From assembly GCA_023150875.1 (NCBI GenBank), contig JAKLKC010000033.1, positions 1 through 64,000 of the forward strand: a DNA stretch of 64,000 nucleotides. Reading direction: 5' to 3'. The stretch is from Myxococcota bacterium (lineage in GTDB: Bacteria; Myxococcota_A; UBA796; UBA9615; JAKLKC01). The notes beneath the pieces were generated by a model that saw only the letters and a list, made by a program, of their open reading frames with translations, did not search any database and was not told where the DNA came from. This document shows positions 389-60,447 of the stretch, one piece after another; positions within the stretch are counted from its first letter, which is position 1; every line of letters starts with the position of its first letter. The translations under genes were made by a program, and so were the position numbers.

Positions 389-781
389 GTGAGCTTCGCC
401 ATGGTCACCCATCCCCTTGCAACCTACTCCGGTTACAACGCCAGCGGCGCCGAGAACGAGTTTGCCGTGCGCATCTCCCAGCCCATCGGGCGCACCAACA
501 AGGAGCTTCGGGTCTGGCTCAACGGCATCGCCCGCTCCGAGGGGACGGCCAACCGGTACGTGAAGGTCATCATCCGCCATTCCCCCGATTCCGGCGTCCA
601 GTCCTTCGCCGAGCACACCGTCGCCATCAACAACAGCACCGTCACCGACCTCGGGTGGCTCACCGGCTACGCCGACCTCGCCAACGAGGGGCCCGTGGGC
701 TCCTTCATCGAGGTCGTCCTGGTGGTGCAGGCCAACGCCGACATCACCTGCCAGGTCTACCTCGAGGCCAAGCCCCTCTGA
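389..781 (+). CDS. Small cassette protein A (unknown family)
   Basis: A 130-residue protein of unknown function and first gene of cassette 1. I chose the GTG at 389 because AAAGGAG (374-380) lies eight bases upstream; an ATG at 401 is the alternative. It aligns along its whole length with the next gene and with the frameshifted gene at 52533: an N-terminal VTHPL motif, then a segment resembling FAVRISQPIG followed by LRVWL, and near the C-terminus GSFIEVVLVV (GDYLEVVLKV and GSYVEVVLTI in the relatives). The alternating hydrophobic pattern suggests an all-beta fold. No signal peptide, membrane segment or cysteine pair is visible. Conservation next to a glycoside-hydrolase-like gene suggests a binding, structural or partner role, which is inference. 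I do not recognise the family. Confidence 0.75.
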   Translation: MSFAMVTHPLATYSGYNASGAENEFAVRISQPIGRTNKELRVWLNGIARSEGTANRYVKVIIRHSPDSGVQSFAEHTVAINNSTVTDLGWLTGYADLANEGPVGSFIEVVLVVQANADITCQVYLEAKPL

Positions 782-827
782 CGGCGCCCGGACCCTCCAC
801 GGGGTCCCCGCTCGGGAGCGCACCGAC

Positions 828-1208
828 ATGGGCGAAGTCATCGTCACCCATCCCCTCACCCTCTTCCAGGCCGCGAACGGGCAGACCCGGTCCTACCGGG
901 TGCGCATCCGCCGCCCTCTCGGCCTCGCGGTCCGCAACCTGCGGGTCAGCGTGGACGTCCAGGAGCGCGCCAACGTCGCGCTGGCCGTGCAGGTCAACCA
1001 CGCCCCCGCCCTGGACGTCCCGGCGTTCGCCACCCACACCGCCAACGCCATCACCGACTCGGGGACCACGGGCCTCTCCACCGGAGCGGCGGACGTGGAC
1101 GGCGCCGGTCCCCTGGGCGACTATCTGGAGGTGGTCCTCAAGGTCACCGGCTCCGGCGGGGTCGGGACCATGGTGGGCGAGGTCTACGTCGAGCCACTGC
1201 CCGGATGA
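828..1208 (+). CDS. Small cassette protein B (paralogue of A)
   Basis: A 126-residue paralogue of the preceding gene. Shared features are IVTHPL near the start, YRVRIRRPLG, LRVSVDV and the C-terminal GDYLEVVLKVTG. The ATG at 828 has a weak GGGAG (814-818) upstream. Its TGA (1206-1208) overlaps an ATG at 1205, but the following gene more likely starts at 1235 behind a better ribosome binding site, so the two are closely spaced and probably co-transcribed. Beta-rich by eye; no signal peptide or transmembrane stretch. Cassette 2 keeps one gene of this family rather than two, so A and B may have arisen by duplication inside cassette 1. Function unknown. Confidence 0.75.
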   Translation: MGEVIVTHPLTLFQAANGQTRSYRVRIRRPLGLAVRNLRVSVDVQERANVALAVQVNHAPALDVPAFATHTANAITDSGTTGLSTGAADVDGAGPLGDYLEVVLKVTGSGGVGTMVGEVYVEPLPG

Positions 1209-1234
1209 GCTGTCCCCCCCGAGGAGGCCGAGAG

Positions 1235-4200
1235 ATGACGTGCGGCTGCGGGAAGGCGGGCGCGGCGGGGACCGGAATAGGATCCCGCGGGCTCGCGGGC
1301 ATGGAGGAGGTCTTCCGCGACCTGCCCTTCCTCCGGGAGCGCTTCCGGGCCAACGCCGAGTACGCTCGCCTCGTCCCAGGCGCAGACTCGGCCGGTGACC
1401 CGGCGTGCGGGAGCCGCGGGTGCCGCGGCACATCCGCCCGGTCCTCGGACGCCTCCGCCGGCGGGCGCCGGCCGTCGTCTCCCGCCGTCAGGCGCCCGCC
1501 GCCGGCCCCGTTCCGGGACCGGATCGGTCGCCTCGTCACCGGCATCCGCAACGGCCTGCCCCACGCCGAAGACTTCCCCTTGGCGGGCTCCGGTCCGAAC
1601 TCCTCAACCGCTGCCGGAGAGTGCCCCTGCGCCAGTGACGGCGATCATGCGCCGGACGGCGGGGTCGGTGAAGCGTCCAGAGCGAGCTGGCTTCCCGAGG
1701 GCACGGACCTGACTCCCTGGTTCGAGGACGCCTTCCTGTTCATGACGAGGGCGATGGGAAACCGTCTCCAGCCCAGAGCCAAGGCCGTGAGTGTGCGGCC
1801 GGTGAGGAGCCGGCCGCGCCGATCACGGTCGACTCCCGCCGCGAGTCAGGGGATCCGGATGCCGCCGCGGACCGCGTCCGGGACCGAGATCCCCTCCCCG
1901 CTTCCCGGCCCCGGAGCGGAAGCCGCCACGTTCGAAACCCCGTGTGACGGGTCATCATGCGCCGCCCCTCCCGCCGAGGGCGGACGAACGGGTCTGTGCT
2001 ACGTCCGCTTCTACCTGTACGCAGACACCGCTGCGGGTGGCGGACTCAGGGCGGATGCGGACCCTCGATACGCCGGGTCCCCCGTGCAACTCGTCCGCGA
2101 CGTCCAGAACCTGGGCGTGTCCCTCGTGCGTCAGATCGAGCACGCCGACGCGGACCTGAGCGCGATGTGGCAGGGAGACGCCATCGGTTGGATTCCGGTG
2201 GCCGACCTGCACCCGGACCCGTGGGACGACGCCACGAGCCCGGACGCGGTGGCGAACGCCGTCGCCGCCAATACATGGGTGCCCCGATGGCAGTGCAGCC
2301 CAGACTTCGCTGCCCCGAGGTACGGTGACGACCCCATCGGGTGGACGTGGGTGGAGTCGACGCGGGCCTGCGGGGCCGGCGCCGCGGAGGACTGTTCCTC
2401 ACCGCACAGTCCGGGAACCTGCCGCCCGGAGTGCGAAGCGCCCGGAGTGTATCGGGACTCGCTGACGGGGGTCGCGGCGCTCGCGGGCGCGGCCGGGCTC
2501 TCGGTCGTGCCCACCCTGTTCAAGAGGTCGGACCGGAGCGTGAGCGTCGATCCCGATCCTGATGCCACTGCTGCGGACTACGCGGAACTTTTCGACGCTG
2601 CCGGCAACGCGTCGAGCGCGTTCTCGTTGGACTACATGCTGGATGACGGAACGGGCACCCCCCGCACCGCGAACCTCTGGCTCGGCACTGTGGACGAGTG
2701 GGCCGACGCCGCGAGCGGGCTCGCGCCGGACCCTCGCGTGTTCCTCCACCAGTACAGGCTCCACCAGGACTTCCTCGTGCAGCTCCTCGACGGTGGAGAC
2801 TGGGGCGCGGGCCTGGACCTCCCGTTCGTCAACCTGGGAAACGAGCTGTACTCGGGTGCGGTGACCGCCGCGGACCTCGGCTGGTACGTGCTCCGGACCT
2901 GCGAGGTGGTGGCGGACTGCGCCCCCACGGCGCAGAAGATCTACCCCGCCCCCAACAGCCTGAGCAACGAGCCCACGGGGGACGCGGCCTACGACACCGC
3001 GTGCGAGACTCTCCTGGCGTCCGAGGAGCTGGCCGTCCCCGCGGCCGAGAGGCAGAACCACGTCCGCCGCATCAAGTGCCACCTGGACGAGACCTTCTTC
3101 CACGTCGTCCGGGCCGCACTCGTGGCCCAGGTCACGGATCCGGACCCCAGCCGCTTCACCGGAGTCTTGGGCCCGAACGTCGACAGTGGATGGCTGAAGT
3201 TCCAGATCGCATACAACCTGTTCACCCATGAGCTGCTGTCCTATCTCTCCACCGTGCTCGGTCCGGACATCGCGGACTGGCAAGCCGCGCTCCTGCCCGT
3301 ACCCTCGAACCCCCGTGACCTCTCTTGGAGCAAAGCCTACCACCGGTGGTTCGTCCGCCTCGTCTCCCACCTGAACCTCCGCGCGCCCTTCGAGGTCATG
3401 GACTTCCACTGGTACAACGCCAACGGTCCCCGCTGGGAGAGCGAGCAGTTCAACTTCGGTGGCTTCCTCTATCTCTCTGCCGCACGGCACCATGTGGACG
3501 CCATCCGCGGTCGCCTTGCCGATTGGTGGACCAATGGCGACGACCTCCCCATCTGGTGCAGCGAGACAGGGATCTCCAGTGGGCTGGAGCCCTGCCACTT
3601 CATCGAGCGGAGCGTCGTGGACGTAGCCAACGGCGTCCGTTGCATCGTCCACCACTCCTCCTCGCTCTGGCCCATGGCCGATAACTTCGGCGTGCCCATC
3701 CCGAAGCTCGAGCAGTTCGAGTTCCGCGTAGCCCCGGACATCGTGATTGGCTCCCTCTATCCCGCGACCGTGTCGTTCCCGCCCGACGTGATGGAGGGCG
3801 TCGGCCTCGACCTGGTCTCCTCCTGCCCGGACGCTCCCGCGGTCGGCAGCCAGCCCTGGCCGCGCTGGGTGTTCACCGACCAGCACGAGCAGGCGGTCCA
3901 GGTGTGGACGCGGCTCTCGTACCTCGCCGGCTGCGGGACGGAGCGGGTGTTCTGGTACACCAACCAGGGAAACTCCATCAAGGGGACGACCGAGGGTGGG
4001 GTGGAGGGGTTCTACACCTACGGGGTGACCGAAGATGGGGTCTTCTCACGGGTCCGCGAGCTTACCCCGGGGGAGTTTCAATGCACTTCCGTCGCGGACG
4101 ACACACTGTACGCTCGACGCCCCAAGCGACCAGCGTGGTGCGCGCTGCGTCGGTGGAACCAGTTCCTCGACCGCTACTCCTGTGCTCGCCTGCTCCTGTC

Positions 4201-4762
4201 CGGTGAAGACCCGCAACGCGGCGCATACGCGGTCGTGTTCCGACGGGACCCCACGAGTACGGGCACCGGTGCCGCCGCACACTCCGCCGCGGACTACCCC
4301 TATGCACTCGTGGCGTGGGCGGACCCCAGCGCATACTCGGACTCGGACATGACCGCGGCGCTCACGGCCGCCGTGGGTGCGGGGCCCGCCGCGCCCTCGT
4401 TCCGCATCGGATTCCGCCGCGACGCCGCCGCGGTGGCCTCGCCCCTCCGGGTCCAGACCGTCCCCACCGTCGCAGTGGAGGGCACAGGACCCTACGAGGT
4501 GGCCTGCGCGGACGACGCAGCATCCCCCCCTCCCGCGGGTGCGGACGGGAGCCACTACCAGGGCCATTACTGGGTCTTCGGACCCGACTCGCTCCTCGCC
4601 GAGGACGGCGCGGGCGTCTCGGTGATCGACGTCTTCGCCGAGGCGCGTCACCTCGATCCCGATGCTCGGGAGATGCCGATCCTGCTGCTGCTCCCTCCGG
4701 GGGAGTTGTTCCACGGCGACGCAGCCGGCGGGACGCTGCTCTGCACGCTCGATCCGGTCTAG
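1235..4762 (+). CDS. Giant glycoside-hydrolase-like protein (clan GH-A-type TIM barrel)
   Basis: An 1175-residue protein. Start at 1235 is preferred over 1205 because GAGGAGG (1221-1227) lies seven bases upstream. Residues 1 to about 240 are low-complexity, rich in Pro, Arg and Ser. The rest looks like one large catalytic domain: YVRFYLY (about 255), LVRQIEHADADLSAMW, NLGNEL with Asn536-Glu537, DFHWY with His725, WCSETG with Glu777, and RVFWYTNQG. An NE pair at the end of one strand and a second Glu several strands later is the signature of clan A retaining glycoside hydrolases (families 5, 10, 39 and others). The same motifs recur in the cassette 2 relative, which otherwise differs a lot, so they are probably the active site. 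A beta-sandwich-like C-terminal part follows. There is no clear Sec signal. Substrate unknown; family assignment is inference. Confidence 0.65.
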   Translation: MTCGCGKAGAAGTGIGSRGLAGMEEVFRDLPFLRERFRANAEYARLVPGADSAGDPACGSRGCRGTSARSSDASAGGRRPSSPAVRRPPPAPFRDRIGRLVTGIRNGLPHAEDFPLAGSGPNSSTAAGECPCASDGDHAPDGGVGEASRASWLPEGTDLTPWFEDAFLFMTRAMGNRLQPRAKAVSVRPVRSRPRRSRSTPAASQGIRMPPRTASGTEIPSPLPGPGAEAATFETPCDGSSCAAPPAEGGRTGLCYVRFYLYADTAAGGGLRADADPRYAGSPVQLVRDVQNLGVSLVRQIEHADADLSAMWQGDAIGWIPVADLHPDPWDDATSPDAVANAVAANTWVPRWQCSPDFAAPRYGDDPIGWTWVESTRACGAGAAEDCSSPHSPGTCRPECEAPGVYRDSLTGVAALAGAAGLSVVPTLFKRSDRSVSVDPDPDATAADYAELFDAAGNASSAFSLDYMLDDGTGTPRTANLWLGTVDEWADAASGLAPDPRVFLHQYRLHQDFLVQLLDGGDWGAGLDLPFVNLGNELYSGAVTAADLGWYVLRTCEVVADCAPTAQKIYPAPNSLSNEPTGDAAYDTACETLLASEELAVPAAERQNHVRRIKCHLDETFFHVVRAALVAQVTDPDPSRFTGVLGPNVDSGWLKFQIAYNLFTHELLSYLSTVLGPDIADWQAALLPVPSNPRDLSWSKAYHRWFVRLVSHLNLRAPFEVMDFHWYNANGPRWESEQFNFGGFLYLSAARHHVDAIRGRLADWWTNGDDLPIWCSETGISSGLEPCHFIERSVVDVANGVRCIVHHSSSLWPMADNFGVPIPKLEQFEFRVAPDIVIGSLYPATVSFPPDVMEGVGLDLVSSCPDAPAVGSQPWPRWVFTDQHEQAVQVWTRLSYLAGCGTERVFWYTNQGNSIKGTTEGGVEGFYTYGVTEDGVFSRVRELTPGEFQCTSVADDTLYARRPKRPAWCALRRWNQFLDRYSCARLLLSGEDPQRGAYAVVFRRDPTSTGTGAAAHSAADYPYALVAWADPSAYSDSDMTAALTAAVGAGPAAPSFRIGFRRDAAAVASPLRVQTVPTVAVEGTGPYEVACADDAASPPPAGADGSHYQGHYWVFGPDSLLAEDGAGVSVIDVFAEARHLDPDAREMPILLLLPPGELFHGDAAGGTLLCTLDPV

Positions 4763-4805
4763 GCGAGGCAAACCCGGCCACGTTACACCTGGGGGAGGAA
4801 GCAAG

Positions 4806-6605
4806 ATGAGCCGCCGGGCACGCAAGACCTTGCTCGGGTGGGTTGGGTGCTCCGCCCTGCTCCTGGGGGTGGGGTGCGGGCCAAACGACGCCGACGACGA
4901 CTCGACGCCGGCGGACGACGACTCGACCTTCCCGGACGACGACACCGGGGCCGATGACGACGGCACGCCCCCGGACGACGATACCACGTCCGACGACGAC
5001 TCCACCCCGACGGACGGAGATGGCGACGGGGCACCGTCGGACGTGGACTGTGACGACACCGACCCGTCGGTGCACCCCGGCGCCGCGGAGTCCTGCGACG
5101 GGCGCGACGAGGACTGCTCGGGAGCCCCCGACGACCCGTTCGACGCGGACGGCGACGGGGCGGCGGGATCCGAGGACTGCCCCCCTGAGTTTCGGACCGA
5201 CTGCGACGACTCGGACCCCGCTGTACACCCGGGGGCCATCGACGCCTGTGGCGATGGGGTCGACAGCGACTGCACCGGAGACGAGGTAGGGTGCCGATAC
5301 ACTGGGACGAGGGTCGTGTCGGACGCGCCGGTGCGGCTATACGCCCAGGACTACGACGGCTACCTGGGCGGCGGGGACGCGGTGGCAGGAGGTGGTGACA
5401 TCAACGCGGACGGGTTTCCCGACCTGGTGCTGGGCATTCCTTGGTTGGACATTGGCTACGGCGTCGGACTGGTCGCATACGGTTCCTTTGCAGAGGGTTC
5501 GTGGGACGTAGTCGGTGAGGGGGGAACGGGCGGTGACGGCGTTTTCGGCGACTGGTGGGAGAGCGAGGCGGGGACCAGCGTCGCCATCGCCGGCGACGTG
5601 GACGGAGACGGTTACGACGACGTACTGGTGGGCGCCCCCAACGAGTTCGGTGCCCTCGGAGAGGAGCAGGCGGGGATCGCGTACTTCGTCAGCGGTCCCG
5701 TCGAAGGGGGGTACGGACTCGACAACGGGAGGCTGACGGCGTACGTGAGGGGGACCACGATCTTCGATAGGATCGGCGCAATTGTCGCCAGTGCCGGGGA
5801 CGTCGACGGAGATGGATTCGGCGACATCCTGGTCGGAGGGAGAGGCCCCTTCCGCCTGTTCTACGGACCCGTGACAGGGGCGCTCACCCCGGAAGACGCG
5901 GACGCCACTCTGCAATGGTCCGACCCAACCCTGGGTGACGGTGGAGGGACAGCGGTCGCTGGCGCGCGCGACGTCAACGGGGACGGATTGGACGATGTAC
6001 TCTACAGCGTTGGAGAGAACGCGGTCGCTCTGGTCCTGGGCCCGCTCTCCGGTCCCGTGACCACGTCGGACGGAGCCGCACTCTTCACCTCGGACGAGTG
6101 GCGACCGGCGCTGGGCACGTCGGTCGCGCTCGCCGGTGACGTGAACGGGGACGGCGTCGAAGACGTCGTCCTGGGGGCCATGGGTGCGGACGGCGTCGTG
6201 GAGGACGCGGGCGCCATCTACGTGTTCCACGGGCCGTTCTCGGGGGAGCACCCCGTGACCACGGCGGACGCCACCCTCATGGGCGAGGGGGGGGAAGGGG
6301 CCGGGCATGCCCTCGCCTCCACCGGAGACGTCAACCAGGATGGCTACGCGGACTTCCTCGTCGGCGCTTACCGGTATGGCGGATTGGGGGCGGAGTCGGG
6401 GGAAGCATACCTGGTCTACGGACCCGTCTCGGGCACCGTCTCCCTGCCGGATGTGGGAGCGCGCTTCCAGGGCGACGCAGCCGGTGACCGCGCCGGGTAC
6501 GCCGTGGCCGGCGTCGGCGACCTGGACTCCGACGGCTACCCCGACTTCATCATCGGCGCACCCCGCAGCCCCGGTGCCTACCTCTTCTGGGGGCGCGGAG
6601 ATTGA
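4806..6605 (+). CDS. FG-GAP beta-propeller lipoprotein with MopE-type motifs
   Basis: A 599-residue lipoprotein starting at ATG 4806 behind GGGGGAGGAA. The signal peptide ends in a lipobox (LLLGVGC). An acidic linker of DDD repeats follows, then two MopE-type metal-binding motifs (DCDDTDPSVHPGA, CDGRDEDCSG and a second set). The remainder holds seven FG-GAP/integrin-type repeats with calcium-loop sequences such as GDVDGDGYDDVLVGAP, consistent with a seven-bladed propeller. It is expected to sit on the outer surface, anchored by lipid, and to bind calcium and a protein or glycan partner. It is the last gene of cassette 1; the cassette 2 counterpart at 58283 has the same architecture. The partner is unknown, but linkage suggests it works with the hydrolase-like protein. 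Confidence 0.8.
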   Translation: MSRRARKTLLGWVGCSALLLGVGCGPNDADDDSTPADDDSTFPDDDTGADDDGTPPDDDTTSDDDSTPTDGDGDGAPSDVDCDDTDPSVHPGAAESCDGRDEDCSGAPDDPFDADGDGAAGSEDCPPEFRTDCDDSDPAVHPGAIDACGDGVDSDCTGDEVGCRYTGTRVVSDAPVRLYAQDYDGYLGGGDAVAGGGDINADGFPDLVLGIPWLDIGYGVGLVAYGSFAEGSWDVVGEGGTGGDGVFGDWWESEAGTSVAIAGDVDGDGYDDVLVGAPNEFGALGEEQAGIAYFVSGPVEGGYGLDNGRLTAYVRGTTIFDRIGAIVASAGDVDGDGFGDILVGGRGPFRLFYGPVTGALTPEDADATLQWSDPTLGDGGGTAVAGARDVNGDGLDDVLYSVGENAVALVLGPLSGPVTTSDGAALFTSDEWRPALGTSVALAGDVNGDGVEDVVLGAMGADGVVEDAGAIYVFHGPFSGEHPVTTADATLMGEGGEGAGHALASTGDVNQDGYADFLVGAYRYGGLGAESGEAYLVYGPVSGTVSLPDVGARFQGDAAGDRAGYAVAGVGDLDSDGYPDFIIGAPRSPGAYLFWGRGD

Positions 6606-40384: not shown

Positions 40385-40746
40385 GGGGGTGTCTCCTCGG
40401 TCGGCGGGGGGAGAGCAAGGGGGGCGCCGGCGGGACCGGGCATAATTGCGCCCGGTGTGAATGGGAGGCTTTCCCTCCTCCTCGCCCCCGGTCTCCCCCT
40501 CCCCGCGGACGACGGGCCTGGCCGCCCGGACTCGTCCAGGGTCGACGACGATGGCGATGACGGCCCCTGGAAGGCGAGCGACGACTCCGGGAGCGCCGCG
40601 CGCACTCGGGTGCGGCAAACGGACGGGGGCGCCCGGGGGCGTTCGCTTGCGCGCCCGCCACCCGGGGAGCTAGGGTGCTGCTGCCTCCGCGTCCCGCCGG
40701 CCGGGGCGTGGGCCCGTTGAGGACGCTATCCCCCGTGGAGCCGACG

Positions 40747-42429
40747 ATGCCGCGAGCCCCCTGGACCCTCCTCGTCGCCCTCGTCACCGCCCCGCTCCTC
40801 GTGGCCGGCTGCGGGCCCCGGCCGACCGGTGGCGACGACGATGACGACACCGCCCCCGACGACGACACCTGGCTCGGCGACGACGACACCACGCCCGACG
40901 ACGACACCGCCCCCGACGACGACACCACGCCCGACGACGACACCGCGCCCGACGACGACACCGCGCCCGACGACGACACCGCCCCCGACGACGACACCGC
41001 CCCCGACGACGACACCGCCCCCGACGACGACACCGCCCCCGACGACGTTGACGGCGACGGCTTTCCGGCCGGCGACGACTGCGACGACGCCGACGACGCC
41101 GTGCATCCCGGCGCCGAAGAGCACTGCGACGGGAGGGACGAGGACTGCGACGGGGAGGTCGACGAGGAGGCCGTCGACCTCGGCATCTGGTACACCGACG
41201 CCGACCGCGATGGGCACGGAGACCCTTCGGCCTCGACCACGAGCTGCCTCCAGCCCCCGGACACCTCGGAGCTCGGAGACGACTGCGACGACGCCGATCC
41301 CGGCACCCACCCCGGCGCCCACGAGCTCTGCGATGGGGACGACGAGGACTGCGACGGGCTCGCCGACGAGGGCCTCGACGTGGACGTGGACGGCGACGGC
41401 CACTTCCCGGCGGGAGGTTGCGTCGGCGGCGGCGACGACTGCGACGACGGTGACGCCACCGCCTTCCCGGGCGCGGCGGAGGTCTGCGACGGGGACGACG
41501 AGGACTGCGACGGGCTCGCCGACGAGGGCCTCGACTCCCCGTATCACCCCGACGCCGACGGGGACGGCTATGGCGACGACACCGTCACGGCGTGGTTCTG
41601 CGCCGCGCCCGGGGCGGGCTACTCCACGTTCGGGGGCGACTGCGACGACACCTACTACAATACCGAGGGCTTGTGCCGCTGGACGAGCGTGGGCGCCGGC
41701 CGGTTCCACGTGTGCGCCATCCGCGAGGGCGGAGCGGTGGAGTGCTTCGGCCTCGATTACGGCGGCTCGACGAGCCCCCCCGGGGGTTCGTTCCGGCAGG
41801 TCGCGGTCGGCACCTACCACTCCTGTGGGCTCCGGGACGACGGGACGATCGAGTGCTGGGGACAGGACACCTACGGCCAGTCCTCGCCCCCTTCGGGCAC
41901 GTACTCGTCACTCGACGCGGGCCGCAACACCAACTGCGCCGTGCGGGAGCCCGACGCCGCCCTCGTGTGCTGGGGAGAGGACGTCAACGACATGATCACG
42001 GACGTCCCGGGTGGCCTCTTCGTCCAGGTTGGCATCGGCTCGACCCACGCTTGTGCCCTGCGCAACAACGGCACGGTGGAGTGTTGGGGTTCCGACTACT
42101 ACGGCCAGTCGACGCCCCCCTCGGGCACGTTCGAGATGGTCGACGGCGGCTACTACCACTCCTGCGGCGTGAGGACCGGCGGCATGATCGAGTGCTGGGG
42201 CGGTGCCGACCCCGCGGTCACCACTCCCCCCGCGGGGACCTTCCAGTGGGTGTCCTCCCTGGACGGCAACTGCGCCCTGAGCACGGCGGGCGCGGTGGAC
42301 TGCTGGGGCGGCCCCAGCGATCCGACCGGCACCTTCTCCTCCGTCTCCGAGGGGGGCTACACCCAGTGCGGCGTGCACCTCGACGGGACGCTGGAGTGCT
42401 GGGGCAGCCTGGACGGCCTCTGGGACTGA
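40747..42429 (+). CDS. Lipoprotein with MopE motifs and RCC1-like propeller
   Basis: 560 residues from ATG 40747. Lipobox LLVAGC; a very long acidic linker of DDDTAP/DDDTTP units; three to four MopE-type motifs (DCDDADDAVHPGAEEHCDG and others); then about seven repeats around CALRNNGTVECWG and PPSGTF, the pattern of RCC1/BLIP-type beta-propellers. It is inserted, in the opposite direction, between the second and third DUF2330 genes. It should be exposed outside the cell. The RCC1-like part may bind protein partners or inhibit enzymes. Confidence 0.8.
   Translation: MPRAPWTLLVALVTAPLLVAGCGPRPTGGDDDDDTAPDDDTWLGDDDTTPDDDTAPDDDTTPDDDTAPDDDTAPDDDTAPDDDTAPDDDTAPDDDTAPDDVDGDGFPAGDDCDDADDAVHPGAEEHCDGRDEDCDGEVDEEAVDLGIWYTDADRDGHGDPSASTTSCLQPPDTSELGDDCDDADPGTHPGAHELCDGDDEDCDGLADEGLDVDVDGDGHFPAGGCVGGGDDCDDGDATAFPGAAEVCDGDDEDCDGLADEGLDSPYHPDADGDGYGDDTVTAWFCAAPGAGYSTFGGDCDDTYYNTEGLCRWTSVGAGRFHVCAIREGGAVECFGLDYGGSTSPPGGSFRQVAVGTYHSCGLRDDGTIECWGQDTYGQSSPPSGTYSSLDAGRNTNCAVREPDAALVCWGEDVNDMITDVPGGLFVQVGIGSTHACALRNNGTVECWGSDYYGQSTPPSGTFEMVDGGYYHSCGVRTGGMIECWGGADPAVTTPPAGTFQWVSSLDGNCALSTAGAVDCWGGPSDPTGTFSSVSEGGYTQCGVHLDGTLECWGSLDGLWD
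40840..41046 (+). repeat. 18-base coding repeat (DDDTxP linker)
   Basis: About ten tandem units of 18 bases, of the type GACGACGACACCGCCCCC, coding for the Asp-Asp-Asp-Thr-Ala/Thr-Pro linker of the lipoprotein. Units are nearly identical, so copy number can change by slippage without breaking the frame. Shorter versions occur in the linkers at 4900-5020 and 36238-36320. Confidence 0.85.
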
Positions 42430-45154: not shown

Positions 45155-45309
45155 CCGAGGATCTCCGCTCGATTTCGGCCATGATAGGGGTCGGTGATCG
45201 GGAGCGCCACGGCCCCGGGCGCGGCCGTCCCGGCCCGGCTCCGACCCGACGACTCTCGCGGAACGGCTCCAGTCCGATTAGGATCGGGGCTCGTTGGGGA
45301 TGCCTTCGC

Positions 45310-48300
45310 ATGACACTCCGCCCACACGCGCGCTTCCTCCTCCTCGCCGGCCTGGCGCTGGCGGGGGTCGCCTGCCTGAAGCCCCCCGAGGTCACGCCCG
45401 ACGACGACGCCACCGGCGACGACGACGACGCGGACGACGACGCCACCAACGCCCCGCCGGAGGCCGACATCGTCGCCCCCGACGAGGGGAGCGAGCACAC
45501 CCAGGGCCAGGACGTCGAGTTCGTGGCCTCCGCCAGCGACGACGGGGGCGCCGAGCACCTGACGGCCTCCTGGTCCAGCGACGTGGACGGCGGGCTGCAC
45601 TCGGGGGCCCCCACGGCCGGCGGCCTGGCCTCCTTCACCACCGACGCCCTGAGCCCCGGCGACCACGTGGTCACCCTGGTCGTCACCGACGGTGGCGGGC
45701 TCCAGGACAGCGACGTGCTCCGGCTGACGGTCGTGGCCACCAACCAGCCCCCGTCGGCGCCGAAGGTGGTGATCTCGCCACCGGGCCCCCAGGGGGACGA
45801 CGACCTCTTCTGCTTCGCCGTGGCCTCGGTGGACCCCGAGGGGGGCGAGGTGTCCTACGCGCTGTCCTGGGCCGTGGACGGCGTGGACGCGGGGATCGAG
45901 GGGGACACCGTCCCCGCGGACGCGACCACCCGCGACCAGACCTGGACCTGCTCCGCCGTCGCCCGGGACCCCGAGGGGGCGGAGAGCGACCCCGGCTCGG
46001 CCCAGGTGGTCATCGAGAACGCCTCCCCCTCCTTCACCTCCGTCTCCCTCGGCCCCTCCCCCGCCTCCGAGACCAGCCTGCTGGTCTGCGCCCCCGAGGG
46101 CTGGTCGGATCCCGACGGCGACGCCGAGGGAGCGCGGTTCGAGTGGCTTGTGGGCGGGGTAGCCGCGGGCCCGGAAGGAGCCGAGCTGGACGGGGCGTAC
46201 TTCGACCACTTCGACGAGGTCCAGTGCCGGGTGTTCCCGGACGACGGCGACGCCGAGGGCTCCCCCCTGGCCAGCAACGCCGTGACCATCGAGAACACGC
46301 CCCCCTCCACGCCCCCCGTGGCCATCGCCCCGGAGGCGCCGGGACCCGGAGACGTGCCGGAGTGCACCGCCGACCTCACGGGGCTCGACCCCGATCCCGA
46401 TCCCCTGGCGGTGGAGTACGCCTGGGAGGTGGACGGGGTTCTCCAGGCTTCCCAGACCGGGGCGGCCCTCGTGGGCGTCGACCTGGCGGTTGGCCAGGCG
46501 TGGACCTGCCGCGCCCGCGTCCACGACGGGTACGACTGGAGCGGCTGGGGCGAGGCGACGGTGACGGTCGTGCCCCGGGAGGGGGACCTGGTGGTGGTGG
46601 AGGTCATGGCGCGACCCACAGCGGTGGCGGACTCCTCCGGGGAGTGGTTCGAGGTGTGGAACCCCACGGAGCGCTTCGTCAGCCTCGCCGGCGTGACCAT
46701 CCGCGACGGGGCCGGCGGGGAGCACACCGTCGCCAGCGCGGGCGCGAGCCTCAGCATCCCCCCCGGGGAGCGAGCCGTCCTGGCGATCCGCGGCGATCCC
46801 TCCGCCAACGGTGGGGTGGAAGCGGACTACGTGTACGAGGGGATCGCCCTGGGGGACGGGGAGGGCGCCGTGTCCCTCTCCTACGCCGGCGTCCTCCTGG
46901 ACGAGGTCGCCTGGGGTGGCGGCGCGGGGTTCCCCGACGCGGCGGGGGCCTCCATGTCCCTGGCCCCCGGCTCCGACCACCTGGACAACGACCTCGGCGC
47001 CTCGTGGTGCCGCGCCACCAGCCTGATCTGGCAGGGCGGCGACTTCGGTACGCCGGGACAGGAGAACGACGACTGCGCCTGCGCGGCGTCGGACGCGGAC
47101 GGGGACGGGTTCGGGGACGACGGGAGCTGTGCGTCGCCTTGGGTGGACTGCGACGACGGGGACGCGGGGAGCCATCCCGGCGGATCGGACGCCTGTGACG
47201 ACGGCGTCGACCAGGACTGCTCCGGCGCGGACCTGCCCTGCGACTGCGCGTCCACCGACGAGGACGGCGACGGGTACGGCACGGCGGACGCGTGCGACCC
47301 CACCGACTGCGACGACACCGATCCGGGGATCTGGCCGGGCGCCGTGGAGGTGTGCGACGGCGACGACGAGGACTGTGACGGGGTGGCGGACAACGGCCAC
47401 GACGACGACGGCGACGGCTTCACCACCTGCGCTGGGGACTGCGACGACACCCGGTCCTCCGTGAAGCCCGGGGCGGCGGAGACATGCAACGGCCGGGACG
47501 ACGACTGCGACTGGCTGGTGGACGAGGGGTTCGACGCCGACGGCGACGGCTTCACCGTCTGTGGCGGGGACTGCCGGGACACGGACGCGGGCGTGTACTA
47601 CGGGGCGCCGGAGCTGTGCAACGACGTCGACGACGACTGCGACGGCCACGTGGACGAGGGCTTCGACACCGATGGCGACGGGTTCACCACGTGCGAGGGG
47701 GACTGCGACGACACCCGATCCGCGGTGAAGCCGGGGGCGCCGGAGCTCTGTAACGGCTTTGACGACGACTGCGACACCGGGGTCGACGAGGGCTTCGACG
47801 TCGACGGCGACGGTTGGACCGTCTGCGAAGGGGACTGCAACGACGGCCGCCCCCAGACCTGGCCCGGCGCCTTCGAGGGCTGCAACGGCACGGACGACGA
47901 CTGCGACGGCCTCGTGGACGAGGGATACGACGGGGACGGCGACGGCCACACCTCGTGCGCGGGGGACTGCGACGACGCCGATCCCGCCATCCGCCCCGGG
48001 GCGGCCGACACCTGCGACGACGGGATCGACCAGGACTGCAACGGGGCGGACCGCCCCTGCGGGTGCGACGAGACCGACTTCGACGGGGACGGCTACGGCA
48101 CAGCAGAGCTGTGCGGCGCGTCGGTGGACTGCGACGACACCGATCCCGCCGTCCACCCGGGCGCCGTGGAGACATGCGACCTCGTGGACGAGGACTGCGA
48201 CGGCGTCGTGGACGAGGGGTTCGACGTGGACGGCGACGGATACAGGACGTGCACGGGGGACTGCAACGACGAGAACGAGGCCGTGAACCCGGGACGCGCG

Positions 48301-48885
48301 GAGGTGTGCAACCTCGTGGACGACGACTGCGACGGACTCCTGGACGAGGGGTACGACGGGGACGGCGACGGTTGGACAGCCTGCGGCGGGGACTGCGACG
48401 ACGGGGACGGGCACGTGAACCCCGGGGCGGCGGAGGCGTGCAACGGGATGAACGACGACTGCGACGGCGAGGTCGACGAGCGGAACGCCACGGGGTGCTA
48501 CGAGTACCTGACCGACTACGACGGCGATGGATTCGGGGTGGGAACCCCCGCCTGCCTGTGCGAGCCGCAGGCGCCCTACACCGCGACCGAAGGGGGGGAC
48601 TGCCACGACGGGGACGCCGACGCCTTCCCGGGTCAGCGCGAGTACTTCGACAGCCCGCGGCCGGACGGCTCGTTCGACTACGACTGCAACGGGAACGCGG
48701 AGCGGCGGTGGGCCGTCATGTCGAGCTGTGACCTGGATTTCGCGTGCATCGGTGCCGGCCCGGGATGGCGGGACTACGTCCCAAGCTGCGGGGTCGGCTC
48801 GTACTACACCGAGAGGTGCGCCGTCGACCTCTTCACGGGGTGCTTCGACGACTACGTCTACGTGCTCACGCAGCAGTGCCGGTAG
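45310..48885 (+). CDS. Large surface lipoprotein: Ig/PKD-like domains, lamin-tail domain, MopE array
   Basis: 1191 residues from ATG 45310. Lipobox LAGVAC, acidic linker (DDDATGDDDDADDD), four PKD/cadherin-like repeats (about 45-420, each near VDPEGGEVSYALSWAVDGVD type words), a lamin-tail-like domain (about 425-580: VVVEVMARP, GEWFEVWNP, DEVAWGGG), then about a dozen MopE-type motifs in tandem (DCDDTRSSVKPGAAETCNG, DDDCDGLVDEGYDGDGDG). Such motifs were named after MopE, a copper-binding surface protein of methanotrophs. A metal role here is inference. The C-terminal 100 residues contain several cysteines. Confidence 0.8.
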   Translation: MTLRPHARFLLLAGLALAGVACLKPPEVTPDDDATGDDDDADDDATNAPPEADIVAPDEGSEHTQGQDVEFVASASDDGGAEHLTASWSSDVDGGLHSGAPTAGGLASFTTDALSPGDHVVTLVVTDGGGLQDSDVLRLTVVATNQPPSAPKVVISPPGPQGDDDLFCFAVASVDPEGGEVSYALSWAVDGVDAGIEGDTVPADATTRDQTWTCSAVARDPEGAESDPGSAQVVIENASPSFTSVSLGPSPASETSLLVCAPEGWSDPDGDAEGARFEWLVGGVAAGPEGAELDGAYFDHFDEVQCRVFPDDGDAEGSPLASNAVTIENTPPSTPPVAIAPEAPGPGDVPECTADLTGLDPDPDPLAVEYAWEVDGVLQASQTGAALVGVDLAVGQAWTCRARVHDGYDWSGWGEATVTVVPREGDLVVVEVMARPTAVADSSGEWFEVWNPTERFVSLAGVTIRDGAGGEHTVASAGASLSIPPGERAVLAIRGDPSANGGVEADYVYEGIALGDGEGAVSLSYAGVLLDEVAWGGGAGFPDAAGASMSLAPGSDHLDNDLGASWCRATSLIWQGGDFGTPGQENDDCACAASDADGDGFGDDGSCASPWVDCDDGDAGSHPGGSDACDDGVDQDCSGADLPCDCASTDEDGDGYGTADACDPTDCDDTDPGIWPGAVEVCDGDDEDCDGVADNGHDDDGDGFTTCAGDCDDTRSSVKPGAAETCNGRDDDCDWLVDEGFDADGDGFTVCGGDCRDTDAGVYYGAPELCNDVDDDCDGHVDEGFDTDGDGFTTCEGDCDDTRSAVKPGAPELCNGFDDDCDTGVDEGFDVDGDGWTVCEGDCNDGRPQTWPGAFEGCNGTDDDCDGLVDEGYDGDGDGHTSCAGDCDDADPAIRPGAADTCDDGIDQDCNGADRPCGCDETDFDGDGYGTAELCGASVDCDDTDPAVHPGAVETCDLVDEDCDGVVDEGFDVDGDGYRTCTGDCNDENEAVNPGRAEVCNLVDDDCDGLLDEGYDGDGDGWTACGGDCDDGDGHVNPGAAEACNGMNDDCDGEVDERNATGCYEYLTDYDGDGFGVGTPACLCEPQAPYTATEGGDCHDGDADAFPGQREYFDSPRPDGSFDYDCNGNAERRWAVMSSCDLDFACIGAGPGWRDYVPSCGVGSYYTERCAVDLFTGCFDDYVYVLTQQCR

Positions 48886-51055: not shown

Positions 51056-51862
51056 TCACCCCCGCGGCCCCGGCCGCGACCCGACGTCACGGCCATGACC
51101 CCCACGGCGGGCCATGCCGGTCCAGGTCCCCAGCAGGGCCAGGGCCAGGCCGTACCAGGTGAGGGCGTACTGGAGGTGGGGGCGGCCCTGGTGGGTGGAG
51201 GTCCACCCTGGGGCGGGCCAGGAGGGCGGCGGCCCCCGGGGGGGATCGTCCTGGCGTTCGCCCTCCCGGACGAACCAGCCGGGGTCTTCGATGCCCAACG
51301 CCCGGGCCATGGGGATGGGGGCGACGTGGTTCCAGCGGCGCACCCGGCCACCCAGGTCCTGGGAGTCGGTGGCCGCCGCCTCGGGGAACCACTCCGACGC
51401 GTCCCGGGCGAGGCCCCGCAGCTCGACGGGGCCGGCGGCCTCGGCCCTCGCTCGGGAGAGGGCCTCGTCGAAGCCGTCCCGGGGCACGAAGCCCCGGTCC
51501 ACCAGCACCGTCCCCCCCGGGCCGGGGCGCCATTCGAAGGGCACCACCAGGCGGTAGCCCGGGATCCCGAGCCAGTACTGGCGCCCCACCACCAGGGTGC
51601 GGTCCCAGTCCCAGCGCCCCTCCAGCACCACCCGCCGGAAGTCCACCTCCCCGGGATCCGGGGGCTCCGGTCCCAGGTCCGCCTCCCCGAGGGAAGGCGC
51701 GGCGACCCGCTCGTCCATGAGGGCCTGGACCTCCCGGGCCTCGCCCATGCGGCGCACCTGCCAGGTCCCCAGGCCGCACAGGAGGACGAACACCGGCAGG
51801 GCCGCCAGGGTGAGGCGGAGGGAGGGCCGGAACCGGCCCCGGGGTGCGCCCCCCGCGGTCAC
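51056..51862 (-). CDS. SURF1-family cytochrome oxidase assembly protein
   Basis: 268 residues from GTG 51862, which overlaps the TGA of the SCO1 remnant by GTGA. N-terminal helix (LTLAALPVFVLLCGLGTWQV), the conserved GLGTWQVRR, GRWDWDRTLVV and LVDRGFVP motifs, and a C-terminal helix (LTWYGLALALLGTW). SURF1 helps insert haem a into subunit I of aa3-type oxidases. This full copy was kept while a 16-codon fragment of the same gene remains at 60399-60447 beyond cassette 2. Confidence 0.87.
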   Translation of the reverse strand: MTAGGAPRGRFRPSLRLTLAALPVFVLLCGLGTWQVRRMGEAREVQALMDERVAAPSLGEADLGPEPPDPGEVDFRRVVLEGRWDWDRTLVVGRQYWLGIPGYRLVVPFEWRPGPGGTVLVDRGFVPRDGFDEALSRARAEAAGPVELRGLARDASEWFPEAAATDSQDLGGRVRRWNHVAPIPMARALGIEDPGWFVREGERQDDPPRGPPPSWPAPGWTSTHQGRPHLQYALTWYGLALALLGTWTGMARRGGHGRDVGSRPGPRG

Positions 51863-52001
51863 GATCCGCCCCCCGCCATGAGCTTCCTCAGGTCCCGCTC
51901 CACGTCGCCGATCCCGTCGGTGTCGGGGGAATAGTAGCCCCGGATCCGGCCCACGGCGTCCACCAGGACGAAGGAGTTGCCGTGGAGGATGGTGGGGGGC
52001 G
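51859..52001 (-). pseudogene. 3' end of a second SCO1 copy
   Basis: Encodes only the C-terminal 47 or so residues of SCO1 (ILHGNSFVLVDAVGRIRGYY to LMAGGGS). It matches 60444-60586 with two or three differences. It has no start and joins abruptly at 52001/52002 to a piece of the MauG-like gene, the 1282 bases 60587-61868 of the right copy being absent here. Confidence 0.9.
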
Positions 52002-52332
52002 CGGTCGACGGCCTCCCGGTCCCGGGGCGCCATCGCCCCCCAGGCGGCGGCCTCGGGGGAGCCGCCTTCGGGATCGGGACGGGCGGCGGGGGGGAAGCGG
52101 GCCGGATCGGAGAAGTCGGGGAGGGGTCCAAAGAGGGCCTCGTAGCGCTCCCGGTGGGTGCCGCCGACGTGGCGGACCACGGCCATCCGGTTGCCCCCCA
52201 TCTCGACGGCGGCCTCGATGGGGCCGAGGGCCTGGGACCAGGCGCTGTCCTTGCGCCCGTCCCGGAACTGCCAGGGGGACCAGGCCGCCCCCAGCAGGGT
52301 GGGGGCGTTGCGGGGGGCCTCGCCCACGCCCC
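52002..52332 (-). pseudogene. Internal fragment of a second MauG/CcpA-like gene
   Basis: 331 bases matching 61869-62199 with scattered substitutions. The fragment covers the segment around WQFRDGRKDSAWSQALGPIE and the peptides after it. It has neither start nor end and is not translated as part of anything sensible. The match stops at 52332, the left border of cassette 2. Confidence 0.9.
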
Positions 52333-52532: not shown

Positions 52533-52912
52533 ATGATGTTCCGTGCGACGACCCATGCAAGGGGGCTGTATGCAGGCTCGGTCGGTGGTACACGTACTCG
52601 TTCAGGGTCCCGGTCGCTGTGGGGGAGCGGGTCAAGAACCTCTGCGTGTGGCTCACGGTCTACTCCCGACCGTCGAGCAACACCATCACCGTGTCTGTAA
52701 ACCACTCGGATGAGCTGCAGGCAGTTTTCTTCTTCACTCACACCTCGGACGTCGTGAGCAGCTCGTCCAGCGGTAGCACGGGCAAGTTCACCGGCGTCAT
52801 CGACATCGCCACGAAGGGGATGCTGGGCTCGTATGTCGAGGTCGTGTTGACCATCTCGGGAGCGGTCTCCAACAACGACCTCCAGGTGACCATCGAGGGC
52901 AACCCGTTCTGA
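52533..52912 (+). pseudogene. Small cassette protein (frameshifted)
   Basis: Relative of the small genes of cassette 1. ATG 52533 follows GAGGAGG. The frame from 52533 reads TTHARGLYAGSVGG and then goes wrong, while the frame from about 52589 reads YTYSFRVPVAVGERVKNLCV and continues to GSYVEVVLTISG at the end. Joining both gives a complete homologue of proteins A and B, so one base is missing at about 52587-52592. Either real decay or a sequencing error. As the sequence stands, only a shortened product from GTG 52619 would be possible. Confidence 0.8.
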
Positions 52913-52983
52913 CGCCAGGGGCCCGCCGGGGCTCCTTGCGGCGGTCGGTCGGCGCACGCGGAGCCACATCGGAGCCGAAGACG

Positions 52984-54708
52984 ATGGCAGTGGCGAACGA
53001 CGTGGAGGGACAGGAAACACCGCCTTGCGATGGAGAGGTGCGCTGCGGTTGCGGGGAACCTGCCGATGACCACGCCGTTGCGGTCCGGGCCGAGAGGCTT
53101 CGCCGTCGCGGACGGGAGGCGGGGTGTGGGTCTGGCGGCCTTGGCGAGTGCCCATCGGATGGCCGAAGTCCACGTGACCTGTGGTGTCACCAACCCCGAA
53201 GGAACGGTGGGGCCGCCGGCCCGAGTGGTCCGACGCACCAGAGCCCACGCACCCCAACAGCGTCCGAGGTCCACCAACGGCTCGCCCGCTTGAAGGAATG
53301 GCCTGCCCAGGCCAGCACCCACCCCTCCGCAAGCTCGGACGACCTTCCAGCGCCAGACGTATTCCGGCGACTCGCCCACATTCGGGGAAGGCCTGCCCAG
53401 GCGAGCCTCCCGCCCTCCGCTAGCCCGGGCGACGCGCCCACATCGGACATCCTCCGGCAACTCGCTCGCTTGAAGGGCTGGCCCACCCGCGCGACCTCCC
53501 GGCCCTCTGCAGGCTCCGACTACCTCCCGGCCTCGGACGTCCTCCGGCAACTCGCCCGCTTGAAGGGGTGGCCTACCCACGAGACCACCCAACCGTCTGC
53601 AGGCTCCGACTACCTCCCGGCTTCGGACGTCCTCCGGCAACTCGCCCGCCTGAAAGGGTGGATGGTCGAGCCGAGCCCGCCGGCCACACCACGACCGGAC
53701 GACCTGACCGCATCCGAGATCCTACAGCGGATAAGCCTGAGGGGATGGTCGGGCCGTGTCGGCAGCGCTGCCGCTGCTGCCACACCCAAAGATTCAACCT
53801 CGGGCGAGGTTGCCCCGTTCACGTGTCCGCGGGGCGATGGCGTGGGTCGTGTCGGCGGACCCGTGCGTTCCTGGTGCAGCAGCTCCAACAATCCTAGCGG
53901 GCCTCCCGGAAGTCCTGACGCCCATTCCACCTCGGGCGTGGGTGCAACCTCCGGGTTTGCTGAAAGTACGGCTCCCGCATCCTCCCGCAGCGACGTACTG
54001 CTCAGCTCTCTCCGACCGGGCGGTGATACCGACCCTTCCGCGGGTGACGGCTTGATCATCCCGGCCCCAGCCTCCCCACCTGGATCTCCGCTGCGGCGCA
54101 CCGGGCTCCCGGCCGGGTCAGGGGGCTTGCAGATTCAACCGCGCGAGTTCCCGCGCGACTTTTCAGATCGAAGGACTGGCCTCACGTTCCTGCGTTTTTC
54201 CGTCGATGACGGAGGTGCCGACGCCCGCAGGCACGGTACAACAGAACAACTGGTCCATGACGCGGAATTGCTGGGAGTCACGTTCATCAGACAGCTCAAC
54301 GACGCGGATGCTTACTTGAAGCACATGTGGGCCGGGGGCGGTGGTTTTAGGTGGCCTGAGCCCTTCGGGCCGTACTGGACGGGGGCGAGCGTCTGTGCTG
54401 GACCCAAGTGCGGCGGCGGCGGATCACCTATGCTTGAGCCCGGTCATTGTGATTACTCGGCTGACTCGGGTTCGGTACCGCCCGTCTTCCCTGCTCGGCT
54501 GCGCACCGTCATCGATGCCGCGGATCGCATGCAGCTGATTCCACAGCCCGGAGATCGTGGCGTGGGCAAACCGCCCTGGGAGCGGGCAGATCCCGACCTT
54601 CTCGCAGAGATGCGCGGTACCGTCGTCTTCAAGTGGGACTTCACAGACGGCACTGGAACACCGCGCCTCAACGCACCGTTTCGCCTCGGCAGTGTGGACA
54701 ACCGATAG
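52984..54708 (+). pseudogene. Hydrolase-like protein of cassette 2, N-terminal part (split by IS)
   Basis: About 574 residues from ATG 52984 (weak GGAG nine bases upstream; TTG 52936 is the longer option). Residues from about 100 to 250 are built from 30-residue repeats (LARLKGWP...PSAGSDYLPASDVLRQ). Ser/Pro-rich linkers follow, then the start of the catalytic domain (LTFLRFSVDDGG, IRQLNDADAYLKHMW), which matches cassette 1. The frame ends at a TAG (54706-54708) formed at the junction with the IS element. The continuing part of the gene is at 56373. Confidence 0.85.
53257..53745 (+). repeat. 90-base in-frame tandem repeats
   Basis: Units begin at 53281, 53371, 53461, 53551 and 53641 (last one partial), each coding for 30 residues around LARLKGWP, PSAGSDYLPASDVLRQ. 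The units at 53461 and 53551 are most alike, and outer units are more diverged. The absence of such repeats in cassette 1 means that this N-terminal region differs between the two hydrolase-like proteins. Confidence 0.88.
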
Positions 54709-54831
54709 AGTCCCGCCGAGTGGTGTACGAGACCTGAGCTGACGGAGAGTCCGTCGGTGAGGGTCTTGACGAGGGCCATCGGGTTCTCCGACAAGGGGGT
54801 TGCGAAGCCAACCCTGACGGAGGTGGACCCG

Positions 54832-56040
54832 ATGGCTAGGACGAGTGTAGAGGCGCGTGGTGGTGCGGGCAACGTGGTGGAGCTGGGAGCGCACCGGGAC
54901 TGGCTTCGGGAGCTGGCGGGGCGGTTCCTGGCGCAGGTGATGGAGGAGGAGGCGGGGGTGCTGTGTGGGGCCGGGTACGGCGAGCGCAGCGAGGAGCGTC
55001 AGAACTCGCGCAACGGGTATCGCCCGCGGGAGTTCGAGACGCGGCTGGGGAGCCTGGAGCTGAAGATCCCGAAGCTGCGGGAGGGGAGCTACTTCCCGGG
55101 GTTCCTGGAGCCGCGCCGGCGGTGGGAACGCGCGTTCGTGAGCGTGGTGAGCGAGGCGTACGTGCTGGGGGTGTCGACGCGGAAGGTGGAGGGGCTGGTG
55201 GAGGCGATGGGTGCGAAGGGGATGTCGAAGAGCGAGGTGTCCCGACTGGCCCAGAGCCTGGACGGCGAGGTGGAGGAGTTCCGGCAGCGGCGGCTCCAGA
55301 AGGCGTACCCTTACCTGTGGCTGGACGCGCTGTACGTGAAGGTGCGGGAGGGTGCCCGGGTGGTCTCGAAGGCGGTGCTGGTGGCCCACGGGGTCAACGA
55401 GACCGGGGAGCGGGAGGTTCTGGGCGTCGATGTGGCCGACGGCGAGATGGAGAGCGCCTGGCGCGGCTTCCTCGCCGGCCTGATCGGGCGCGGCCTTCAC
55501 GGGGTGGAGCTGGTGATCTCCGACGCCCACGAGGGGCTGAAGAAGGGGATCCGGGCAGTGCTGAACGGGGTGAGCTGGCAGCGGTGCATGGTGCACTTCC
55601 TGAGGAACGTGCTGAGCCGGGTTCCGAAGTCGGCGCAGGCGTTCGTGGCGGCGGTGCTCAAGACGGTGTTCACCCATGGGACGCCGGAGGCGGCGCAGGA
55701 GGCGCTGACCAAGGCGATCGACGGGCTGCGGCCGAAGTACCCCGGGGCGGCGTCGGTGCTGGAGGAGGGCGGTGCGGACGCCCTGTCGTACCTGAGCTTC
55801 CCCGAGAAGCACTGGCGGCAGATCCGGTCGACGAACCCCCTGGAGCGGCTGAACAAGGAGATCCGTCGCCGGACGGACGTGGTGGGGATCTTCCCGACGG
55901 GCGCGTCGGTCGTTCGCCTGGTGGGTGCGGTGCTGATGGAGCAGAACGACGAGTGGGCGGTGGGTCGGCGGTACTTCAGCCAGGAGTCGATGGCGCTGCT
56001 GTATCCTCCGGGGCCGGCGCTGCTGGAGGGGGCGGTATGA
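54832..56040 (+). CDS. IS256-family (mutator-type) transposase
   Basis: 402 residues from ATG 54832 (an in-frame start at 54757 is less likely). DDE-type catalytic residues: Asp in LWLDALYVKV, Asp in VISDAHEGLK and Glu in TNPLERLNKEIRRR, with WQRCMVHFLRN between them, the standard IS256 layout. Full length with no breaks, so it should be functional. It moves the element by cut-and-paste or replicative transposition. Confidence 0.95.
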   Translation: MARTSVEARGGAGNVVELGAHRDWLRELAGRFLAQVMEEEAGVLCGAGYGERSEERQNSRNGYRPREFETRLGSLELKIPKLREGSYFPGFLEPRRRWERAFVSVVSEAYVLGVSTRKVEGLVEAMGAKGMSKSEVSRLAQSLDGEVEEFRQRRLQKAYPYLWLDALYVKVREGARVVSKAVLVAHGVNETGEREVLGVDVADGEMESAWRGFLAGLIGRGLHGVELVISDAHEGLKKGIRAVLNGVSWQRCMVHFLRNVLSRVPKSAQAFVAAVLKTVFTHGTPEAAQEALTKAIDGLRPKYPGAASVLEEGGADALSYLSFPEKHWRQIRSTNPLERLNKEIRRRTDVVGIFPTGASVVRLVGAVLMEQNDEWAVGRRYFSQESMALLYPPGPALLEGAV

Positions 56041-56284
56041 GGCTGTGGAGGCCCGCCGTCCGTGGCACCGGGGTGGTGCCACCGGTTCCGGCCGGCGTCA
56101 AGGGCGGGGTCCCTTCGGGATGCTTCGCACCCTTGACCCCGTCCGGCCCCGGCGGCGCGTGGGAGGGGTGCGACGGACGGCGGGATGCGACCTGTATGCT
56201 CCGGGCCAGCAGGATGGCCGGGAAGCGATGAAGCCAGGACCCGGGTGGGGAGGCCGCTCGGCCCCTCACCCCGTTCCGCCTGCC

Positions 56285-56304
56285 CCCTCTCCCCAGGGAG
56301 AGGG
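56285..56304. repeat. Short perfect palindrome at the IS tail
   Basis: CCCTCTCCC-CA-GGGAGAGGG: arms of nine bases with a two-base spacer, inside the non-coding end of the IS. A second stem-loop (GGCACC at 56061-56066 with GGTGCC at 56072-56077) lies just after the transposase stop. They may act as transcription terminators for the transposase gene; neither is followed by a T run. Confidence 0.5.
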
Positions 56305-56372
56305 AGCGGCGGCGATCACGGAGTCAACGACGAGGACACGGTGGCCCTCATACACCACTTGACGGGACGCAA

Positions 56373-58244: not shown

Positions 58245-58282
58245 GACGAAACACGAACGCGCTGCACGGACTGCCCTGGAAC

Positions 58283-60392: not shown

Positions 60393-60398
60393 CCGCCG

Positions 60399-60447
60399 GG
60401 GTGAGGCGGAGGGAGGGCCGGAACCGGGGCACGGCCCCCGCGGTCAC
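60399..60447 (-). pseudogene. 5' fragment of a second SURF1 gene
   Basis: Begins with GTGA overlapping the SCO1 stop, as in the complete copy, and codes for the first 16 or so residues (VTAGAVPRFRPSLRLT) before running into cassette 2 material. It aligns with 51808-51862 with small indels. Shows that cassette 2 sits inside the surf1 gene and that the full surf1 copy at 51056-51862 lies on the other side of it. Confidence 0.85.

Follow-up and report, generated by a model that had tools for sequence, protein, structure and literature searches.

The window analysed here, a stretch of 64,000 nucleotides from the draft genome of a Myxococcota bacterium (contig JAKLKC010000033.1), harbors close to its left end a set of adjacent genes encoding small proteins, a very large hydrolase-like protein and a lipoprotein; the question that it raises is whether these genes form a unit not described up to now and, if so, which of them belong to it. 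The gene content assigned to this first cassette (389–6605, forward strand) by a previous reading of the sequence alone was borne out. Two small proteins of the same family, sharing 38% of their residues, are encoded at 389–781 (start GTG 389 or ATG 401; matched by the family profile) and at 828–1208 (modelled as an eight-stranded beta sandwich); they are followed by the hydrolase (1205–4762), a 1,185-aa ORF with a likely start MTCGCG at 1235 and the words LGNEL, DFHWY, and WCSETG, and by a MopE/FG-GAP lipoprotein (4806–6605) with the corresponding Pfam motifs and a lipoprotein signal. The candidate catalytic glutamates of the hydrolase correspond to codons 2843–2845 (in LGNEL) and 3563–3565 (in WCSETG), and its N-terminus is a Cys-rich, signal-less leader (1235–1360) carrying the PFL variant (VFRDLPFLRERF) of a motif discussed below.

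The sequence-only reading considered this multi-gene set undescribed, and the database searches support it: neither the hydrolase nor the small protein retrieved anything above the cut-off from Pfam, NCBIfam, or PADLOC, and their matches in PHROGs were sub-threshold noise only. The absence of a PADLOC match also led us to discard a reading as a defence system, and nothing that describes this system was found in the literature. Probing with 17 members of the hydrolase family did not retrieve any Pfam family at an E-value of 10, and no NCBIfam or PDB sequence matched it. No relative was found when some 85,000 species genomes were scanned for the pattern (from which the records of this genome itself were possibly left out), nor in 57 relatives, in 378 genomes of the phylum (two candidates scored per genome), in viral contigs, or in plasmids; the genomes compared all came from outside its genus and family. 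The AlphaFold model of the hydrolase, of moderate quality (pLDDT 64, pTM 0.77), had as best Foldseek matches mostly TIM-barrel glycosidases, which were weak and not significant (E at or above 5e-3).

A second cassette (52534–60229, forward strand) had been read as carrying the same three genes. Relatives of all three are indeed present, the hydrolase core being 37–38% identical to that of cassette 1 and the small proteins and the lipoproteins aligning too (58283–60229 for the second lipoprotein, with its Pfam motifs), but the hydrolase is split into two ORFs (52936–54708 and 56457–58244) by a Transposase_mut element. The latter, 1,670 bp long (54705–56374), embeds a transposase ORF (54757–56040; Pfam E 2e-128) and has similar inverted ends flanked by 9-bp target duplications (GGACAACCG, at 54696 and 56375), that is, the Mutator-type transposase, terminal inverted repeats, and 8–9 bp target duplication by which the IS256 family is recognised. 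The hydrolase frame is continuous across the reconstructed empty site: the 5′ part (52936–54704, with a CGCG leader) ends where the left duplication ends, and the 3′ part (56375–58244) contains LGNEL, DFHWY, and WCSETG. Five 90-bp tandem repeats (53258–53707) encode leader repeats of the LKGWP type. The small jelly-roll gene of this cassette (52534–52912) is frameshifted or misassembled, since its only nearby ATG (52534) lies in a different frame from the body, for which no start in frame precedes GTG 52619.

Fragments of SURF1, SCO1, and MauG genes are duplicated on both sides of cassette 2 and are about 96% identical; sequence comparison revealed a rearranged SURF1-start/SCO1-end/MauG-middle copy on the left (51802–52301) and a second SURF1-start/SCO1-end copy on the right (60393–60586), with a MauG piece at 61869–62168. 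Moreover, the GC content at third codon positions (GC3) of the cassette 2 hydrolase is 0.70–0.72 against a background of 0.93. Because of the nearly identical duplicated flanks and of this atypical GC3, cassette 2 probably arrived or moved fairly recently. The idea that the set had long been kept together, rather than recently copied, agrees with how far the family has diverged; cassette 2 itself, however, lies within a recent duplication and is decaying.

A search of this genome with the cassette 2 hydrolase disclosed 18 hydrolase loci on 16 contigs (two each on C107 and C143), so that the cassette, previously thought to occur twice, belongs to a much larger family; the number of loci may be inflated by strain variants, several copies standing alone on contigs of 3–7 kb. 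Their pairwise identity ranges from 29% to 82%, and in ten closer pairs dN/dS was 0.26–0.50, indicative of purifying selection. The agreement of the active-site words claimed for the two cassettes extends to GNE and ETG, which are kept in every copy covering them, but not to DFHWY, which is replaced by PFSWF in the two C143 paralogues. About five copies look broken: besides the IS-interrupted cassette 2 (C107b), the 3′ part of C111 comes after an rve-type transposase, C120 is split across two frames, C66 lacks the 5′ part, and the leader of C40 lies in a different frame, where, in a draft genome, frameshifts may represent assembly errors. The GC3 of the cassette hydrolases averages 0.85, against 0.93 in the other genes of the same contigs (p = 1.5e-4), which fits a recent arrival or movement of the cassettes; that of the C143 forms is host-like (0.94–0.95). 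In one locus (L022:13156–14336) a GHMP-kinase gene has a full cassette on one side and, on the other, where the contig ends, the beginning of another, almost identical small gene, which suggests tandem cassettes.

As for the neighbours, a MopE/FG-GAP gene adjoins the hydrolase in 12 of the 14 readable loci (directly downstream in eleven and upstream in C114); it is absent from both C143 loci, and the four other hydrolase loci end at contig edges. The association is enriched, yet the protein family is not cassette-specific, the genome containing at least 150 MopE motif matches. Within the window itself, two large proteins (45181–48882 and 40675–42426) carry ten and three MopE motifs, respectively, plus LTD/PKD or RCC1 domains. 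The lipoprotein, whose signal was called by hydropathy and lipobox pattern only, is probably a surface partner. A small protein of the first family precedes the hydrolase in C107 (both loci), C179, C25, and C114, one of a second family (b) in C21, C37, and C118, and a third beta-rich small protein in C24; the hydrolases of C97, C156, and C120 have the leader and no small gene directly upstream. A B12-binding (mostly radical-SAM) gene adjoins three cassettes (L026:5713–7302, L025:3059–4663, and L079:793–2463, on contigs C97, C114, and C170, respectively); given the 41 B12-binding matches in the genome, this is suggestive at most, and the gene was left outside the model.

The N-termini of the hydrolases begin with MGCGC, MTCGCG, MSCKG, and the like, with cysteines often arranged as CxC, and most of them continue with one to three PWL motifs (e.g., RERLARLLPWLRPML). 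Cassette 1 has a single PFL, the LKGWP-type repeats of cassette 2 are 30 residues long, and a lone LKGWP is found in C114, while the leaders of C156 and C24 consist of the Cys part only; overall, the short motifs, built around PW[LIV], occur in one to five copies. Most leaders have no hydrophobic segment (C25 being borderline) and show no Sec signal, whereas a hydrophobic segment is present in the neighbouring lipoproteins. In paralogue C143b the leader is missing and a lipoprotein-type signal stands in its place, a natural swap that is our main reason for thinking that the leader serves localisation.

The small protein is modelled as an eight-stranded beta sandwich with a pLDDT of 81, and its structural matches are generic jelly-rolls, namely virus capsid proteins, carbohydrate-binding modules (CBMs), the furin P domain, and phage minor tail proteins, with TM-scores of about 0.6 or lower. 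No Pfam CBM was found in it, and its likeness to the fold of CBM61 and others is generic; a viral origin was discarded, given generic structural matches and no relatives in phages or viral contigs. The jelly-roll family was found by profile search in 11 of the 71 genomes of the class, including the MAGs F1-120-MAGs226, Umea1p3_bin-980, M30B51, and BH28; of the 379 phylum genomes drawn, none from another class had it. At one locus (L121:5408–8658) of BH28, a MAG that bears the label Candidatus Uhrbacteria, the gene that comes after two jelly-roll genes in tandem encodes not a Cys/PWL protein but a Maf-type flagellin glycosyltransferase (PF20157, PF01973).

If the three genes formed a system, they should be neighbours in other genomes as well. 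The trio with this hydrolase was not found in those searched; what recurs instead is the jelly-roll gene followed by a partner with the Cys/PWL leader and another payload. The unit conserved across the class is a tightly spaced pair, the jelly-roll and the leader-bearing next gene (with a gap of mostly −4 to +23 nt), and not a trio. PW[LIV] is present in 12 of the 17 partner loci of other genomes and in 5 of 361 background genes (Fisher p = 2e-15), a comparison limited by the partial dependence between loci of one genome and by the fact that the motif had first been noticed in some of the data tested. Partners carrying PW[LIV], usually together with cysteines, were found in G023, G039, G322 (three loci), G052, G289 (two), G005 (two), G048, and G004, where the partner comes after a second small gene; in two further loci of G322 the start is Cys-rich but has no PWL, and the payload is a subtilase, and in three loci an unrelated gene lies next to the jelly-roll. 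A search of the 71 genomes with an FWPxxxPFPPxxPWL leader profile retrieved seven leaders, all of them behind jelly-rolls, and nothing else convincing. The payloads behind the leader are exchanged, comprising the GH-like hydrolase, subtilases, and short proteins of unknown fold. One of them (contig C117 of G048) contains resembling words (ELGNEF, GYHWYHG, and TLGEIGF), but neither hhalign (E 0.07) nor an HMM search (no match) supports a common origin with the hydrolase, and we did not count it among the relatives of the latter. After the payload, this genome has only the common FG-GAP gene, a neighbour largely confined to this genome, and other genomes have no consistent gene there.

On these grounds we propose, with a probability of roughly 0.4, a two-gene module in which a leader–jelly-roll pair delivers or holds an exchangeable payload outside the cytoplasm and the FG-GAP lipoprotein acts as an anchor. 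The first gene encodes a single-domain jelly-roll of about 125 aa and the second, a few bases away, a leader with cysteines and usually PW[LIV], fused to the payload; the leader would bind the jelly-roll, and the pair, in place of a signal peptide, might carry the payload out of the cytoplasm or hold it there. In this genome, the usual payload is the large glycoside-hydrolase-like enzyme with its two invariant Glu residues, and the neighbouring MopE/FG-GAP lipoprotein of most cassettes might be its surface anchor or receptor. The enzyme family has multiplied here to about 18 loci, perhaps to act on many glycans, with several copies decaying. Against the module count the three hydrolases with a leader but devoid of a small gene directly upstream (C97, C156, and C120), the two PW-less subtilase partners, the three unrelated next genes, and an FG-GAP neighbour that hardly extends beyond this genome; moreover, a leader protein lacking a signal may simply be cytosolic, which counts against delivery. 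A broader claim, which we put forward only tentatively and hold to be rather doubtful, is that the Cys/PWL leader and the jelly-roll represent an undescribed, partner-dependent, and Sec-independent targeting signal by which one class of bacteria places varied enzymes on or outside its cells, with an amplification to about eighteen hydrolase loci in a single lineage. Should the leader truly serve in targeting or docking, the way in which these cells export large enzymes without a signal peptide would be explained, further payloads could be found by their leader, and a modular tag would be at hand; in addition, the hydrolase with its 18 loci represents a large family of enzymes that went unrecognised in the standard libraries searched.

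In principle, other scenarios can be depicted for the same genes. The conserved leader with variable payloads and the fast turnover are effector-like, and the pair might be an adaptor and an effector of a phage-tail-like delivery machine, with the jelly-roll as adaptor, the leader as loading signal, and a payload directed against competitors or prey. In profile comparison the jelly-roll is related to a domain that occurs doubled in three proteins of about 510 aa encoded in this genome (hhalign 97.2%, E 3e-11), and the C-terminus of one of these is tail-fibre-like; contractile sheath genes (PF17482) are found in this genome and in 68 of 71 across the class, frequently in pairs with a few kb between them. 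However, in none of the genomes compared do the sheath genes share a contig with a jelly-roll locus, and they are nearly universal while the jelly-roll occurs in 11 of 71 genomes, so that a link to extracellular contractile injection systems was rejected; nor did an immunity gene varying with the payload come to light, and known adaptor families were not matched. We therefore regard this scenario as unlikely. The 510-aa proteins themselves (L080:8953–10491, L081:8661–10178, and L082:8322–9839) have a His-rich, tail-fibre-like C-terminus, and the genes of L081 and L082 adjoin SNF2-type helicase/methyltransferase-like proteins of about 1,700 aa, an arrangement reminiscent of phage-like or plasmid-like elements.

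A more conventional possibility, to which we likewise give little credit, is that the cassettes represent ordinary operons by which a glycan degrader makes secreted or surface glycosidases, the small proteins binding carbohydrate and the Cys/PWL region being a linker with no function of its own. The conserved Glu pair, the CBM-like folds among the jelly-roll matches, and the adjoining FG-GAP lipoproteins speak for it; yet a signal peptide is not present, and in other genomes the Cys/PWL region precedes a subtilase and proteins devoid of any glycosidase domain. Since both partners lack signals and the leader repeats short motifs in one to five copies, one might also think of a cytosolic nanocompartment with a jelly-roll shell and the PWL motifs as cargo-loading peptides, jelly-roll capsid proteins being among the Foldseek matches. 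However, these capsid proteins give TM-scores that do not exceed about 0.6, the jelly-roll is a generic fold, and both the lipoproteins beside the hydrolase and the lipoprotein-type paralogue point to the outside of the cell, which makes a nanocompartment very improbable. The two-gene module with a leader–jelly-roll pair remains the reading that we prefer.

Lastly, the components of this module can be compared with known systems. The hydrolase shares with the retaining glycoside hydrolases of clan GH-A a word with NE and another with E, which follow each other as acid/base and nucleophile would, and GH1, GH5, GH39, GH51, and GH157 are among its weak, non-significant fold matches; it differs from them in having no sequence match in Pfam, NCBIfam, or the PDB and, in its cassette forms, no signal peptide. 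The third gene of the cassette encodes an ordinary Pfam member of the MopE/FG-GAP lipoproteins (PF11617, PF01839), the one peculiarity of which, in a genome where the motif is abundant, is the regular position beside hydrolases. Encapsulins and other nanocompartments are similar in their short, repeated cargo motifs beside a small potential coat protein; the small protein of the module is modelled as a jelly-roll beta sandwich and not as an HK97 fold. The adaptor–effector pairs of type VI secretion and extracellular contractile injection systems resemble it in that the gene of a small protein immediately precedes that of a larger one without a signal, and in the jelly-roll domain common to tail-fibre-like proteins, and differ from it in that the module has no known adaptor domain and is unlinked to sheath loci. 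Polymorphic toxin and effector systems combine a shared N-terminal delivery region with a variable C-terminal payload. As far as the domain searches go, the module has in common with them one leader, varied payloads, and multi-copy loci with a fast turnover, and it departs from them in having a jelly-roll partner, no known delivery domain, and no recognisable payload-specific immunity gene. The association of one leader with many payloads and a small partner is a logic of an already known kind; what deserves attention is the unexplained leader, together with the expansion of the hydrolase to 18 loci, rather than the trio that was first described.
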